Below, in pieces: positions 43,263 through 49,988 of a stretch of 64,000 nucleotides of DNA; position 1 is the first letter of the stretch; every line of letters starts with the position of its first letter. Location of the stretch: the NCBI GenBank assembly GCA_024685995.1, contig JAIBDY010000005.1:1-64000 (forward strand), given 5' to 3'. The notes under the pieces were generated by a model, which saw only the letters and a list, made by a program, of their open reading frames with translations, was not told where the DNA came from and ran no database searches. A program made the position numbers and the translations under genes. The stretch comes from Piscirickettsiaceae bacterium. Lineage in GTDB: Bacteria; Pseudomonadota; Gammaproteobacteria; Nitrosococcales; Methylophagaceae.

Positions 43263-43302
43263 TAAAAAAAAGCTTGATGATCCAATAAGGACCATCAAGC
43301 TT
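43263..43302 (-). terminator. Terminator of the molybdoenzyme operon
   Basis: On the minus strand AAGCTTGATG pairs with CATCAAGCTT, with an inner GTCC/GGAT extension, and a run of T follows the stem. It lies 25-64 bases after the reductase stop. Confidence 0.92.
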
Positions 43303-43326
43303 CATTTGAGACGAATGACGTCGCTT

Positions 43327-44451
43327 TTAAACGGCAGAAACTCGAAGTGTTTTCTGTATTAAGTCGTTTGTAGGCGAAATCGCATCATGTGGACAAGCAT
43401 CAATACAAGCGTAACAACGAATACATTCGTCACTATTGATGACTAAGGTATTGTAGTAGGCGCCCGATGTTTGACCGGGACTGACGCGCTGTAATGATGT
43501 GATACCTGTTTCTCGGTAACTAAACATACTGCTTTCAACAATACAATTTGCTACCGGTTTGACGAGTAAGCATTCATCACAGACAGTACATTTTGAGTTA
43601 TTGATGACAGGTGCCGGTGATCTGGCATCTTCAAATTTATCATAACCAATATCGTCTTCATCTAAACCAGCAGCTTTAAGAATCAACGCACCATGATCAA
43701 TCATGGCAGGAGGACCACAGAAGAACGCTTTCATATTGGTGATATCAATTTTATTGGTATCAAGAAAGTTTTCTTTAAAGTACTGGGTGACTAAGCCACG
43801 GGCACCATGCCAATCTGTATGGTCTGGTTCTTCAGACAAAACAGGCACAAAAGTAAATTTATAGTCTGGATGCCATTGCGCAGCAATCGCTTCCATTTCA
43901 GCCAAAAGATACAAGTCTTCTTGGGCACGAGCACCATAAAAGAAGAAGCAATCACGCTCAAGTTTTCTACTCGCTGCTTGTTCAACAATGGCGTTGATTG
44001 CACTCATGCCACTACCACCGGCAATACAGACAATCGTTTTATCGGATTTATCCAGTCTAAACTTACCCATCGGTCCGCCGACGATGACTTTTTGCCCAAC
44101 ACGGTTAGGTTGTACTAACCAGTTAGACATTTCACCGCCCGGCACTAGGCGAATAAAGAATGTCACTTCATTCGGGTTCTCGAGACAAGGGGCTTTAGCA
44201 AATGAATAAGCGCGTGGTTTATCAATGCCTTCCACTTCTAAGATGCCATATTGACCGGCTTGTGCTTCTACGAAGCCAATACCGTCATAGGTGACCGTTA
44301 ACTCGAATGTATCGTGGGTTAACTTCTCAAGCGACGTGATAACGCCTGTATGACGTTTTACACGTGACGTATTAATTTCACGATTGGGTACAGGTAAACC
44401 ACTTTCATTGTCAAAAGGATCATTAAAGTGTTTGAGTAATGGATTGGTCAT
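43327..44451 (-). CDS. NAD(P)H-flavin reductase fused to a double [4Fe-4S] ferredoxin domain
   Basis: This 374-residue fusion protein has a ferredoxin-NADP reductase-like half and a bacterial ferredoxin half. The FAD part has RAYSFAKAP (80-88), the nucleotide part has CIAGGSGMS (142-150) and FFCGPPAM (244-250). The C-terminal part has two cysteine quartets: Cys288/291/294/303 (CTVCDEC then eight residues) and Cys343/346/349/353 (CIRCYACIDACP). It should pass electrons between NAD(P)H and an iron-sulfur partner, most likely the molybdoenzyme whose TGA overlaps its ATG. The first quartet lacks the normal CP ending and has a longer last gap. Confidence 0.88.
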   Translation of the reverse strand: MTNPLLKHFNDPFDNESGLPVPNREINTSRVKRHTGVITSLEKLTHDTFELTVTYDGIGFVEAQAGQYGILEVEGIDKPRAYSFAKAPCLENPNEVTFFIRLVPGGEMSNWLVQPNRVGQKVIVGGPMGKFRLDKSDKTIVCIAGGSGMSAINAIVEQAASRKLERDCFFFYGARAQEDLYLLAEMEAIAAQWHPDYKFTFVPVLSEEPDHTDWHGARGLVTQYFKENFLDTNKIDITNMKAFFCGPPAMIDHGALILKAAGLDEDDIGYDKFEDARSPAPVINNSKCTVCDECLLVKPVANCIVESSMFSYRETGITSLQRVSPGQTSGAYYNTLVINSDECIRCYACIDACPHDAISPTNDLIQKTLRVSAV

Positions 44452-46748
44452 TATGAAAATACTCCTTTATGAATTTCTTTTGCGGCTTCAAGAATTTCTT
44501 CATCAGTAGCTTCAATCCCTTTGTTTCTAGGATCTTCACGCCATTTCTTAATAAAGCCTTGTTCTCCGCCCCAACCAGCAAGGATTTTTTTCTTAGCTGC
44601 TTCTGAAACGGGTTCAATTTCTACCAAACAGGAGTAGAACGTTGGGCTATTACCAAAGTCTGTCAACATCTCAGAATTCAGGGCATTGATATTGACACCA
44701 CCATAGGTGTTACTACCTTTGAATTGTTTCTGAGTATTACAAACACCTTCAAGTAATTTCTCGATAATGACCGCGTGGGCAAATGTTTCGCCACGATCGT
44801 TATAAAGTCTACAAAGGTCACCATCAACGATGTTACGGCGCATCGCATCAGCCGGGCTGAGTTCGACAGTGGGACGTGACATCATGGCATGTAAGCGAGG
44901 TACAGATTGGAAAGAATCACCAATAAAGTTGTGTGATGCACAACTCAATACTTGCAGTGGGTACTGTTCACGTTTTGGATCTTCTTGCCCCTCGATTTCA
45001 GGTACATAACTAGGTAATGGATCGACACCTTGCTCTTTTAATGCTTCAGAGTAGATTTCAATTTTCTTACTTGGTGTTGGCCAGCCATTTTTGAGGAAGT
45101 TACGGCGATCCGTAGATGTGTTCGCGCGTGCCCAACCATTTTTCTTGAGATCTTCGTATTTGATACCTTCCATCAATGGGTTGACGGTATCATCGACTAA
45201 GATGTCACGAATGATTTCTTCATCTGTTTGGGTGAAGGCATTATCATCATCGGTCACATAGCCCATTTTATCGGCTAATTTACGGAACAACTCTGAGTTA
45301 CGAACACTTTCACCTAACGGTTCAATGACAGGCTCATTCATGCTGAAGTACCAGTTGCCATATGTTGCAACCAGGTCCATACGTTCTAGTTGGGTATCAG
45401 CAGGTAAGACGATATCGGCATAATTACAGGTGTCAGTCCAGAAGGTTTCATGCACACCAACGAAAATATCATCACGACTCAAACCATTACGTACCCCGTT
45501 ACTATTCGGTGCACAGTTAGCAGGATCGGAATTATAAACAAAGACTGATTTGATCGGTGGATCGAGTTGTTCTCCATCAGCACCAATGTTTTCATCTAAG
45601 GCGCGACCAATTTGAACCATGCTGATTTGACGTTTAGAGGCACGATCACCCAAATCTGGACGATGAAGTTTACCTAAATCATGGCTTAACCACATTTCTT
45701 CTAGGTTACCAAAGCCTGCGCCACCACATTTTTCACGCCATGAACCGGTGATACAAGGCAGGGTCAGAATCGCACGGCACATTTGACCGGCATTTTGATG
45801 ACGGTTAAGGCCATAGTTAGCACGAATAACAGTTTTCTTAGTATTGGCATATTCTAGCGCCAGTTTTTCAATGTCAGCCGCAGGCACACCGGTAATTTTT
45901 TCAACTTTATCAAGCGGGTAATCAGGCAGTTTATTCTCGAGTAGATCTTCCCAGCCTAATGTTTGTTCTTTCAAAAACTCAATATCGTGCAAGCCAGCGT
46001 CAACAATTACTTTCATCATACCTAAGGCTAACGCTGCATCGGTACCAGGTCTTGGTTGGATATGCCAGTCTGCCATCATGGTTGTGCGGGTTTCGCGAGG
46101 ATCGATAACAACCAATTTTGCGCCGCGTTCTTGTGCTTCGCGAATGAAAGGAATGGCGTGTACACCAGTACTGACTAAGTTAGTCCCCCAAAGGATGATT
46201 AAGTCTGCTTCCTGAGCCGCTTCATGAATCGAGGTGTCGGCATGCGCCATACCATAAGTATGTAGGCCAGCCCACATTGCAGCGAAGATACAAATAGATT
46301 GCTCTAATCGTGCTGCTTCCATTTTGTTCCAAAAACGACTATCCATAGTCCAGTAACCGACCATGCCCATTGTGCCGGAATAAGAATAAGGTTGAACCGC
46401 TTCAGAACCGTATTGTTCGATAGTCTGTTTAAAGTTATCCGTAATGGTGTTTAAAGCTTCGTCCCAAGAAATGCGTTCAAATTTTGCATTAGGGCCTTTA
46501 GGGCCGACACGTTTGTGTGGGTATAACACGCGATTATCGTTATACACAAAATCAAGGTAGTGATTGACTTTGTTACATAGATGGCCACGTGTAATGGGGT
46601 GTGTTGGATCGCCTTGTACTTTAATGGCTTTACCTGTCGTGTCGTCACGTGTGACAAGCATTGAACATGAATCGGGACAGTCATGCGGGCAGACAACATG
46701 GTGTACTGAAAACCCTTCTTTTACTTCAATTTTATTACTTAAGCTCAT
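44451..46748 (-). CDS. Molybdopterin oxidoreductase of the DMSO reductase family
   Basis: ATG at 46748, with AGGAGG about ten bases upstream, gives 765 residues. A longer reading from 46787 lacks such a site. There is no Tat signal, so the enzyme is cytoplasmic. The N-terminal [4Fe-4S] ligands are Cys20, Cys24, Cys28 (CPHDCPDSC) and Cys58. Cys153 in SICIFAAMWAG lies where the family has its Mo or W ligand. Other marks are WDEALNTI, LILWGTNLVSTGVHAIPFI, DPRETRTTMMADWHIQPRPGTDAALALG, and the C-terminal dinucleotide-binding part (VELSPADAMRRNIVDGDLCRLYNDRG, FKGSNTYGGVNINAL). It is not close to formate dehydrogenase, Nar/Nap or DmsA by eye. Substrate unknown. Confidence 0.9.
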   Translation of the reverse strand: MSLSNKIEVKEGFSVHHVVCPHDCPDSCSMLVTRDDTTGKAIKVQGDPTHPITRGHLCNKVNHYLDFVYNDNRVLYPHKRVGPKGPNAKFERISWDEALNTITDNFKQTIEQYGSEAVQPYSYSGTMGMVGYWTMDSRFWNKMEAARLEQSICIFAAMWAGLHTYGMAHADTSIHEAAQEADLIILWGTNLVSTGVHAIPFIREAQERGAKLVVIDPRETRTTMMADWHIQPRPGTDAALALGMMKVIVDAGLHDIEFLKEQTLGWEDLLENKLPDYPLDKVEKITGVPAADIEKLALEYANTKKTVIRANYGLNRHQNAGQMCRAILTLPCITGSWREKCGGAGFGNLEEMWLSHDLGKLHRPDLGDRASKRQISMVQIGRALDENIGADGEQLDPPIKSVFVYNSDPANCAPNSNGVRNGLSRDDIFVGVHETFWTDTCNYADIVLPADTQLERMDLVATYGNWYFSMNEPVIEPLGESVRNSELFRKLADKMGYVTDDDNAFTQTDEEIIRDILVDDTVNPLMEGIKYEDLKKNGWARANTSTDRRNFLKNGWPTPSKKIEIYSEALKEQGVDPLPSYVPEIEGQEDPKREQYPLQVLSCASHNFIGDSFQSVPRLHAMMSRPTVELSPADAMRRNIVDGDLCRLYNDRGETFAHAVIIEKLLEGVCNTQKQFKGSNTYGGVNINALNSEMLTDFGNSPTFYSCLVEIEPVSEAAKKKILAGWGGEQGFIKKWREDPRNKGIEATDEEILEAAKEIHKGVFS

Positions 46749-46849
46749 GAGAAATGAACCTCCTGTAGTTATACCTGTGTGACTCATAATGTGTAGGCGT
46801 CTTATCTAGGGTGCGCTGTAGCATTCAATAAATCACTTAATGTTAAATA

Positions 46850-46886
46850 GAGATAAGCATGACCCCTTGCAGGCCATGCTTATCTC
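46850..46886 (-). other. Intercistronic hairpin between porin and molybdoenzyme genes
   Basis: A perfect 12-base inverted repeat, GAGATAAGCATG (46850-46861) and CATGCTTATCTC (46875-46886), lies in the 150-base gap between the two genes. No T-run follows on the minus strand, so it is not a standard terminator. It may protect the porin part of the transcript from decay or mark a processing site. Confidence 0.75.
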
Positions 46887-46898
46887 ATTGCTCACTAT

Positions 46899-47681
46899 TT
46901 AAAAGCTTTTTGACACACTAGCAACTAAATGACGTTGCCAGATTTCGGTTGTGTCTGTGCTGGCATCAACGTTGGTATCATGGTAGCTCAGGCTAGCTTT
47001 CCATCCATCTCTGAAAGACTTAGTGACACCGACATTGGCATACATCCAGTCGCCTGGTTGTACGAATTCAGGATCACTGAACCATTGATAACCGACTGTA
47101 CCATTAACTGCCCAACCATTACCTAATTGATAAGTTGGTGTGATGGCGGCTGAATAACCTTGTACATCATCGCCTTTATCCGTTTTTGTACCGAACCAAG
47201 CATCCAGTGTTGGAACGAACTCTACATAGATATTGAGGTTTTCTGTGACGTCTTTATTCGCAGTTAACCAAAGCTCTGTGTAGTTTGGTTGATAATCACC
47301 ATCAGATTTGTGGTAGATGTAGTGCCAAAGGAACACATTGTAGTTAATGCCCGTGTCGCCGATGGTGCCGAACTTACCGATATAAGGACCTGACTCAGCA
47401 TAAATCTCTGGCACAAGGTCAAATTTGTTAGTGGCCATCCAGTAACCAGCATAGATACCGGTGTCTTCATGTGTCCATGTCACTAGACCTTGTAGCGAAG
47501 GTACTTCGGTATTTTGTGTTTCAGAGTTACCTCTGAACATACGTTCGTTACCAAACTCGACCCAACCAGTGAAATTACCACCTAGAAAGTCAGGCTCTGA
47601 AGCTGCATCAGTTGCCATCGCAGAAAGCGGGCTCAATGCTGCTAGTGTTGTAATTACGATTTTCTTTAATGTTTTTCTCAT
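46899..47681 (-). CDS. TorF-like putative porin (TIGR02001 type)
   Basis: This 260-residue outer-membrane beta-barrel has a signal peptide (KTLKKIVITTLAALSPLSAMA), amphipathic strands such as NFTGWVEFGNERMFRGNSETQNTEVPSLQGLVTWTHEDTGIYAGYW, and a C-terminal Phe. The FRG...PSLQG...GIYAG pattern is the family hallmark. A strong GGGGAGAGAGGAAA site precedes the ATG. Its place between an AmiS/UreI channel and a molybdoenzyme suggests that it admits the enzyme substrate through the outer membrane. Confidence 0.87.
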   Translation of the reverse strand: MRKTLKKIVITTLAALSPLSAMATDAASEPDFLGGNFTGWVEFGNERMFRGNSETQNTEVPSLQGLVTWTHEDTGIYAGYWMATNKFDLVPEIYAESGPYIGKFGTIGDTGINYNVFLWHYIYHKSDGDYQPNYTELWLTANKDVTENLNIYVEFVPTLDAWFGTKTDKGDDVQGYSAAITPTYQLGNGWAVNGTVGYQWFSDPEFVQPGDWMYANVGVTKSFRDGWKASLSYHDTNVDASTDTTEIWQRHLVASVSKSF

Positions 47682-47733
47682 TTTCCTCTCTCCCCAAGAA
47701 TGAGTGATGTAACGTTGTTTGTGATTTAGTTAA

Positions 47734-48261
47734 TTAAGCGAAAGGCCACATGTTGCCGAAAGGCCAGTATCCGTAGAGGTACATCCAACCTGTGATCGCG
47801 ACTTCTATACCAACGAAGAAGGTTAAAAAGATGGTGACGCCCATGACATTGGTGTTGCCTTTTGCCAAGACAAGGTAAAACAAATACCAGAGAATACCGA
47901 AGGTAACCCATTCAAATGCCCAGCCTAGATCACCGCCAGTGAAGGCTTTGATGGCGAAAGGGATAGTGGTGATGGCGACCAGCACGCAGTAGTAGCCTAG
48001 TGCACGTTGATCTTCTGCACCACGTAATGCGTTGACACCAATCCAAAGATAAGTAATGGCAAATAATAAGCCACTTCCTGCTGTTGGGATGTCGTTTTGT
48101 ACCAATCCAAAGAATAATGCGGCGATAAAACCGATAATACCGACGATGAGATTAAATACCCCAACGTCTTTCGATTCAACTTTGCCTTGTAACCAAATAG
48201 CATTGACAATCAGTACAAAACCGATGAAAAGCAGTGGTACGCCTATAAAGTGACCTGTCAT
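47734..48261 (-). CDS. AmiS/UreI family transporter
   Basis: This 175-residue inner-membrane protein has about six or seven helices. The pattern matches AmiS/UreI channels for urea and short-chain amides: GVPLLFIGFVLIVNAIWLQGKVESKDVGVFNLIVGIIG, FAITYLWIGVNAL, and EWVTFGILWYLFYL. AAGGG precedes the ATG. It is the first gene of the four-gene operon. No amidase, formamidase or urease gene follows, which is unusual, so the solute could be a small neutral molecule other than urea. Confidence 0.9.
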   Translation of the reverse strand: MTGHFIGVPLLFIGFVLIVNAIWLQGKVESKDVGVFNLIVGIIGFIAALFFGLVQNDIPTAGSGLLFAITYLWIGVNALRGAEDQRALGYYCVLVAITTIPFAIKAFTGGDLGWAFEWVTFGILWYLFYLVLAKGNTNVMGVTIFLTFFVGIEVAITGWMYLYGYWPFGNMWPFA

Positions 48262-49544: not shown

Positions 49545-49988
49545 TTAAACTGCGGTCATTGAAATCGTGACGGGCGTTGAATTGGTGATATTGTCACTGA
49601 CGGGACACCTGGCTTCTACGGCTTCTAGGAGTTGTGCAATTTTATCGGCGGGTGCATTGCTTTTAACTTGTATTTGGATTTCGATCTCGTGATAACCCGC
49701 ACGCGCATTCATATCTGTACCGGCAAATTTGGAGGGGTCTAATTTACCGGTAACGTTGATTTCAGTTCCTGCCACGGGGATCCCCATTTCATTGGCAATG
49801 AAAAAAGTCATAAAATTCAAACAGCCCCCGTGGGCCGCGAGGATGAAATCTAACGGGCTGGGCGCACCATTTCTACCCCCTAGCGCTTCGGGTTCATCCA
49901 TAAAAATTTTAAAGGCGTTAGATTCTGTCACACTTCGGGCCATAGATTCACCGATTGTTTTGACCGTGCCGACGTAGGATGTAGCCAT
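49545..49988 (-). CDS. OsmC/Ohr-family protein
   Basis: This 147-residue protein belongs to the family that reduces organic hydroperoxides through two cysteines. The conserved Cys pair is in AHGGCLNFMTFF (about residue 56) and ARCPVSDN (about 131). The GGRNGAPSPLDFILAA start of the first helix is typical of OsmC-like rather than Ohr proteins. GGAGAT precedes the ATG. It is divergent from htpG with 315 bases between. The true substrate is uncertain for this subgroup. Confidence 0.88.
   Translation of the reverse strand: MATSYVGTVKTIGESMARSVTESNAFKIFMDEPEALGGRNGAPSPLDFILAAHGGCLNFMTFFIANEMGIPVAGTEINVTGKLDPSKFAGTDMNARAGYHEIEIQIQVKSNAPADKIAQLLEAVEARCPVSDNITNSTPVTISMTAV

Follow-up and report, generated by a model that had tools for sequence, protein, structure and literature searches.

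Organization of the locus

The window analyzed here is a stretch of 64,000 nucleotides from a Piscirickettsiaceae bacterium (contig JAIBDY010000005.1, assembly GCA_024685995.1, positions 1 to 64,000), and between positions 43,263 and 48,261 it carries four genes, all on the minus strand, for a membrane channel (UreI), an outer-membrane porin (TorF), a molybdopterin enzyme of the dimethyl sulfoxide (DMSO) reductase superfamily (MOP) and a flavoprotein reductase (FNR). The locus is composed of two independent two-gene modules, UreI-TorF and MOP-FNR, the second of which is a real, conserved and uncharacterized enzyme-reductase system. Curated models (PF02293, TIGR02001, PF00384/PF01568/PF04879 and FAD_binding_6/NAD_binding_1/Fer4) bear out the family names that an earlier note on this DNA had given to the four genes. 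The features of the locus, in the direction of transcription, are:

47734..48261, minus strand: UreI, AmiS/UreI inner-membrane channel, first gene of the UreI-TorF module (PF02293, 119.6 bits)
46899..47681, minus strand: TorF, TorF/Gcw_chp outer-membrane porin, second gene of the UreI-TorF module (TIGR02001, 105.3 bits against a cut-off of 47.15)
46850..46886, minus strand: stem-loop between TorF and MOP with a perfect 16-bp stem, terminator- or attenuator-like (RNA folding of the gap)
44451..46748, minus strand: MOP, cytoplasmic molybdopterin enzyme of the DMSO reductase superfamily, 765 aa (Pfam domains, invariant Cys columns)
43327..44451, minus strand: FNR, reductase with a BenC/MmoC/NqrF-type FAD/NAD(P)H part and, fused at its C-terminus, a 2x[4Fe-4S] ferredoxin (Pfam/NCBIfam)
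43269..43303, minus strand: intrinsic terminator 3' of FNR, with a T run after its 15-bp stem

The MOP stop codon occupies 44451-44453 and the ATG of FNR starts on its final base (TAATG), so that the overlap described in the earlier note amounts to one shared base. The longest MOP reading frame has its first ATG at 46787, with a Shine-Dalgarno sequence (AGGAGG) just 5' of a later ATG at 46748, and because many relatives also begin near the position matching this second ATG, MOP probably starts at 46748, which gives a protein of 765 aa and the number Cys153 to the molybdenum ligand, as the earlier note had it. RNA folding of the counterpart of the TorF-MOP stem-loop in the genus-mate G016 gave a stem of 13 bp and a T-rich tail, and since a hairpin lies between TorF and MOP in both genomes, UreI-TorF and MOP-FNR are probably separate or unequally expressed transcripts. 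The earlier picture of a single operon of four genes with one terminator at its end thus survives in its four minus-strand genes and its terminator after FNR, but not in its unity, given the stem-loop after TorF and the separate occurrence of the two pairs. An Rfam search gave zero matches.

Two separable modules

A scan of genome contigs recovered 34 loci whose MOP homologues are 71-86% identical, almost all of them in metagenome-assembled genomes of marine Gammaproteobacteria; of 369 genomes sampled across the class, 10 had a close relative (E 1e-270 or better). FNR lies immediately 3' of MOP in most relatives, and the MOP-FNR pair is found in approximately 30 marine gammaproteobacterial genomes, with other neighbors that vary by lineage. 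A search for all four genes as a joint neighborhood, which the earlier note had proposed, finds UreI and TorF adjoining MOP again in G016 and nowhere else among the genomes examined (loci L036, L042 and L064 belong to one genome). Within the window's genus, four genomes (G003, G010, G011 and G012) have MOP-FNR with no UreI anywhere in the genome, and two (G018 and G022) have UreI-TorF and no MOP; in these two the channel pair immediately follows mobA-, moeA- and ttcA-like genes (L062 and L063, respectively), and the order UreI to TorF is kept there as it is in G016. In relatives that lack UreI-TorF the chromosomal site of MOP-FNR is unchanged, near htpG or an HlyD-like gene and YaaA/TRAP genes, and the channel pair was therefore gained or lost beside a stable core. 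An obligatory four-gene operon is ruled out, as each pair occurs alone elsewhere, and the same distribution counts against the earlier proposal that one substrate passes both membranes to reach MOP.

The UreI protein matches PF02293 over profile positions 3-165 of 166 with 119.6 bits against a cut-off of 25, and matches the Helicobacter pylori urea channel weakly; TorF belongs to its porin family with a score more than 50 bits above the cut-off. No FmdA-type formamidase was found in any UreI-containing genome and no convincing urease in the window genome, which is 82% complete, or its relatives, in agreement with the companionless UreI of the earlier note, and on these grounds urease and formamidase are rejected as a hidden partner. 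The nearest annotated UreI relatives are the same kind of PF02293 channel for small neutral polar solutes, and their neighbors are two formamidases in Halocatena and a dimethylformamidase in Paracoccus aminophilus, whereas the UreI described here is paired with a TorF porin. These neighborhoods speak against the earlier suggestion that UreI delivers the substrate of MOP. The UreI-TorF pair would instead take up small neutral polar solutes independently of MOP-FNR, and these solutes may include the substrate of MOP but need not.

MOP forms a clade of its own

Membership of MOP in the MopB/DMSO reductase superfamily is established by PF00384, PF01568 and PF04879, all above their cut-offs, and the [4Fe-4S] cysteines (20, 24, 28 and 58) and the molybdenum ligand Cys153 are invariant in 26 aligned relatives. 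Its N-terminus has no twin-arginine motif, as the earlier note had observed. An AlphaFold2 model (pLDDT 85.9, pTM 0.85) matched acetylene hydratase as well as it did the nitrate, formate and DMSO reductases (TM-scores of approximately 0.7-0.8), and the fold does not discriminate between them. In a maximum-likelihood tree whose references were drawn from clades other than PhsA, PsrA and TtrA, MOP forms its own clade (100/100), which joins an uncharacterized group of enzymes of ~700 aa (99/99) and lies outside the formate dehydrogenase, YdeP/Fdh4A, Nap/Nas and acetylene hydratase clades; the tree that the earlier note had called for therefore places MOP inside none of the characterized clades included. 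The nearest reference branch is YnfE/YnfF, of the DmsA type (91/90, with long branches). All NCBIfam scores are far under the curated cut-offs, the best being TIGR02166 (300.6 bits against 777.7). We found no description of the MOP clade in the literature.

Comparison with the characterized enzymes shows what MOP shares with each and where it departs. FdhF, the FdhF of the hydrogen-dependent CO2 reductase (HDCR) and the window genome's own formate dehydrogenase-type protein all contain a Cys/Sec-His pair and the motif RGxNNVQG, while MOP has Cys-Ile and no such motif; it scores 68.8 bits against 582.15 with TIGR01701 (YdeP/Fdh4A), and Escherichia coli YdeP itself groups with formate dehydrogenases in the tree. 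Residues, score and tree together rule out Fdh4A or another formate dehydrogenase. The assimilatory nitrate reductases NasA/NasC resemble MOP in being soluble, cytoplasmic, Cys-ligated molybdoenzymes fed by a flavoprotein from NAD(P)H, but they have Cys-Met in place of Cys-Ile, and MOP lies outside the NapA and NasA branch; the window genome carries a separate NasA-like gene as well as its formate dehydrogenase-type gene. The DmsA/YnfE-type S-oxide and selenate reductases, which provide the nearest branch and the top NCBIfam score, differ from MOP in that DmsA has a Ser ligand, is exported by the Tat system and works with the membrane-bound partners DmsBC. The closest sequence with a solved structure is acetylene hydratase (Ahy) of Pelobacter acetylenicus (PDB 2e7z; 185 bits with phmmer, 300 bits with a profile), which shares the N-terminal [4Fe-4S] cluster and the Cys metal ligand, but the Asp13 of this enzyme, next to the second cluster cysteine, aligns with Pro throughout MOP and its sister clade, and acetylene hydratase is rejected on this residue.

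The sister clade (Agrobacterium vitis, Thioclava, Methylophaga pinxianii; ~700 aa) is 34-41% identical to MOP and has the invariant Mo-ligand Cys. It is similar to MOP in having separate NAD(P)H-type reductase genes beside the enzyme, but these encode a small ferredoxin and an FAD-dependent oxidoreductase and are accompanied by moaA or moeA, and its hosts, unlike those of MOP, are not sulfur specialists. Residues ~706-765 of MOP (window 44454-44633) form a helical C-terminal extension of ~60 aa, which is present in FNR-linked and dihydrolipoyl dehydrogenase-linked MOPs and missing from those of family f143, described below, and from the sister clade. A MOP paralogue at L020:8016-10316 has no FNR, and the stretch following its Mo-ligand Cys has diverged (SICTYAATEATTQTY); this active site perhaps has a changed specificity or is in decay.

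NAD(P)H-coupled partners of MOP

The FAD-NAD(P)H half of FNR (FAD_binding_6 and NAD_binding_1) is BenC/MmoC/NqrF-like, also by its PDB relatives, and the 2x[4Fe-4S] ferredoxin domain (Fer4) spans approximately residues 277-374. In family f143 (G390 and G294) a MOP of 57% identity is preceded and overlapped not by FNR but by a GltD/DsrL-type flavoprotein, and the ferredoxin of this flavoprotein is the closest relative found of the FNR ferredoxin after other FNRs (44% over 76-77 aa, E ~1e-20), compared with E of only ~1e-3 for DsrL ferredoxins. DsrL serves dissimilatory sulfur metabolism as an NAD(P)H:acceptor oxidoreductase (PMC7596348). The f143 partner is similar to it in having an N-terminal Fe-S region, FAD/NAD(P) domains and a C-terminal 2x[4Fe-4S] ferredoxin, but it is only 23-26% identical, its ferredoxin is FNR-like rather than DsrL-like, and it adjoins a molybdoenzyme and not DsrAB. 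At L029:283-4301 and L034:6272-10307 a lipoyl-domain dihydrolipoyl dehydrogenase lies directly 5' of a MOP copy without FNR, and the sister clade has the ferredoxin and FAD-dependent oxidoreductase genes described above.

Because independent NAD(P)H modules converge on one group of enzymes, MOP is very likely a soluble NAD(P)H-coupled enzyme, with FNR as its putative dedicated electron donor. That one dedicated kind of ferredoxin is joined to two flavoproteins of unrelated origin is evolutionary evidence for such coupling. The earlier proposal of a cytoplasmic conversion with NAD(P)H-derived electrons gains from these several unrelated reductase types, while its premise that enzymes of the DMSO reductase family go with quinol-linked subunits was too narrow: cytoplasmic, NAD(P)H-linked members of the family are well known, among them the assimilatory nitrate reductases and the NAD+-dependent formate dehydrogenases. 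The genome of locus L034 (G427) also holds a second MOP copy, with FNR (L007). In two genomes of family f40 (L107 and L108) a gene for an AmtB-type ammonium transporter lies 47-72 bp 3' of FNR and is read from the same strand.

Sulfur and one-carbon context of the hosts

The MOP clade has no assigned function and is highly conserved across families, at the identity given above, in uncultured marine sulfur oxidizers and sponge-associated bacteria. With relatedness ignored throughout, dsrA is over its cut-off in 25 of 29 MOP-containing genomes outside the window's family (27 of 29 with split or truncated genes counted) compared with 5 of 20 genomes of the class that lack MOP; SoxB is over its cut-off in 17 of 29 MOP-containing genomes, a set that overlaps with the first 29 and is not identical to it, and in all four near-complete MOP-containing genomes of the window's genus; and methanol dehydrogenase is present in 0 of 6 MOP-containing members of that genus and in 14 of 17 others. 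The MOP-containing genus-mates without methanol dehydrogenase rule out MOP as an enzyme of methylotrophy. The genus as a whole (g1, G000-G022) seems split by the presence or absence of methanol dehydrogenase, with MOP and a close UreI only in lineages that lack it and SoxB frequent there.

The 1.1-Mb genome of the relative G079 was read in 20-kb pieces, apart from masked sequence (two small contigs and 72 kb of a further contig), and in the readable 93% MOP is the only recognizable member of its superfamily that has been kept. This genome also carries dsr, AprA, serine-cycle, tetrahydromethanopterin (H4MPT) and Fhc genes, recognized, except for dsrA, by reading the sequences and not by database search. 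The presence of AprA weakens the case for MOP as a missing sulfite-oxidizing enzyme.

Several loci place sulfur genes close to MOP. A TsuA/YeeE-like transporter lies upstream in L021 and L024-L028, which represent two genomic contexts of one MOP lineage, and SoxY is nearby in L024. In L034 the genes upstream include an MsuE-type FMN reductase and an SfnG that exceeds its cut-off, and in L029 an NtaA/DmoA-family monooxygenase lies downstream; SfnG turns dimethylsulfone into methanesulfinate. The absence of SfnG and DmoA from the window's family and G079 rules them out as companions of MOP in general, and the L034 and L029 neighborhoods may therefore be lineage-specific.

A proposed function and its alternatives

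Our best explanation, offered tentatively, is that MOP-FNR is a NADH-dependent cytoplasmic reductase of a small oxidized sulfur compound, most plausibly a methylated S-oxide, with UreI-TorF as a separate uptake module. In this mechanism NADH would reduce the FAD of FNR, the fused, clade-specific 2x[4Fe-4S] ferredoxin would pass electrons to the [4Fe-4S] cluster of MOP and on to the Cys153-ligated molybdenum, and MOP would reduce DMSO or dimethylsulfone and so free sulfur and methyl carbon for use. Sulfur compounds are the best-supported class of substrate, and reduction of DMSO or dimethylsulfone is a first guess based on the dsrA/Sox association, on the TsuA/YeeE, SoxY, SfnG/MsuE and DmoA neighbors, and on precedents in Hyphomicrobium, which grows on DMSO and dimethyl sulfide through the serine cycle (PMC13352529) and in which, in H. 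denitrificans, sox/hdr genes are linked with dmsAB and mtoX (PMC11237559). The DmsA-type YnfE/YnfF as nearest tree reference, long branches included, also counts for an S-oxide, and the genome of G079, in which dsr and AprA occur together with serine-cycle, H4MPT and Fhc genes and with MOP as the one superfamily enzyme of the readable part, counts for methylated sulfur. We infer, and do not observe, a bis-molybdopterin guanine dinucleotide cofactor, the use of NADH over NADPH, the reductive direction, and the substrate, both as a sulfur compound and more narrowly as DMSO or dimethylsulfone.

Several observations weigh against this assignment. MOP has a Cys ligand where the S- and N-oxide reductases of the DMSOR/DmsA, TorA and BisC type use Ser, and it lacks the twin-arginine motif and the adjacent DmsB/C that go with DmsA. 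Most neighbors of MOP are unrelated housekeeping genes, and the association with dsrA and SoxB is uncorrected for relatedness. The SfnG/DmoA neighborhoods are confined to one MOP subclade, that linked to dihydrolipoyl dehydrogenase, and stand several genes away, with neither gene present in MOP-containing members of the window's family or in G079. The direction of electron flow, finally, is only presumed to be reductive.

The Cys ligand, which MOP shares with PhsA/PsrA, suggests as a rather unlikely alternative that the substrate of MOP-FNR is an inorganic sulfur species, namely thiosulfate, tetrathionate or polysulfide, and that the pair is the soluble, NADH-linked equivalent of these enzymes, supplying either sulfur assimilation or the Dsr/Sox pathways. 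The TsuA/YeeE-like transporter directly upstream in two contexts, the nearby SoxY and the dsrA/SoxB association of the genomes would suit an inorganic sulfur substrate as well, but MOP scores 171.7 with the PhsA equivalog model against a cut-off of 694, no PhsB/PsrB-like ferredoxin subunit or membrane C subunit lies beside it, the YeeE link is seen in one MOP lineage only, and an anion would not pass UreI.

MOP-FNR might also run in the oxidative direction, as a NAD+-reducing dehydrogenase for a one-carbon compound such as formate, or for sulfite, which we consider unlikely. The H4MPT/Fhc genes of G079 end at formate, with no other superfamily enzyme in the readable part, and the f143 partner is DsrL-like, the DsrL of sulfur oxidizers being an enzyme that reduces NAD+ (PMC7596348). 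MOP lacks the formate dehydrogenase residues and motif, however, and stands outside the formate dehydrogenase and YdeP/Fdh4A clades, the window genome has a separate formate dehydrogenase-type gene, and AprA serves sulfite in G079.

Cooperation of all four genes on a small nitrogenous molecule (amide, N-oxide or N-hydroxy compound) entering by UreI would explain why UreI-TorF lies directly upstream of MOP here and in G016, and it would fit with AmtB directly 3' of FNR in family f40 and with the glnK-amtB and glutamate synthase genes near some relatives. It is nevertheless improbable, since UreI-TorF occurs without MOP and MOP without UreI, a terminator-like hairpin separates the modules, and the nitrogen genes vary by lineage and may be chance neighbors. 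A non-redox enzyme like acetylene hydratase, with FNR merely keeping the cluster and metal reduced, as the earlier note had considered, is very improbable: despite the closest PDB sequence and the common Cys ligand, the catalytic Asp13 is Pro in MOP, acetylene hydratase stands apart on a long branch, and interchangeable NAD(P)H reductases suggest a stoichiometric flow of electrons.

If MOP does reduce a methylated S-oxide, its activity would suggest that the DMSO pool of the sea has a sink in the cytoplasm. In its widest form, which we regard as a doubtful extrapolation, MOP would represent a new class of soluble NADH-wired molybdoenzymes with an exchangeable ferredoxin adaptor, by which marine sulfur oxidizers, some of them with one-carbon metabolism, reduce dissolved DMSO or dimethylsulfone in their cytoplasm, and UreI-TorF would have been joined to it in two lineages and admit that neutral solute. 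The MOP-FNR pair is small enough for expression and assay.

Upstream of the four genes, an OsmC-related protein is encoded at window positions 49545-49988 on the same minus strand, 5' of UreI (90.4 bits with the OsmC_like_Se model against a cut-off of 95), and a distant OsmC-related gene (31%) likewise lies upstream of MOP in L034.

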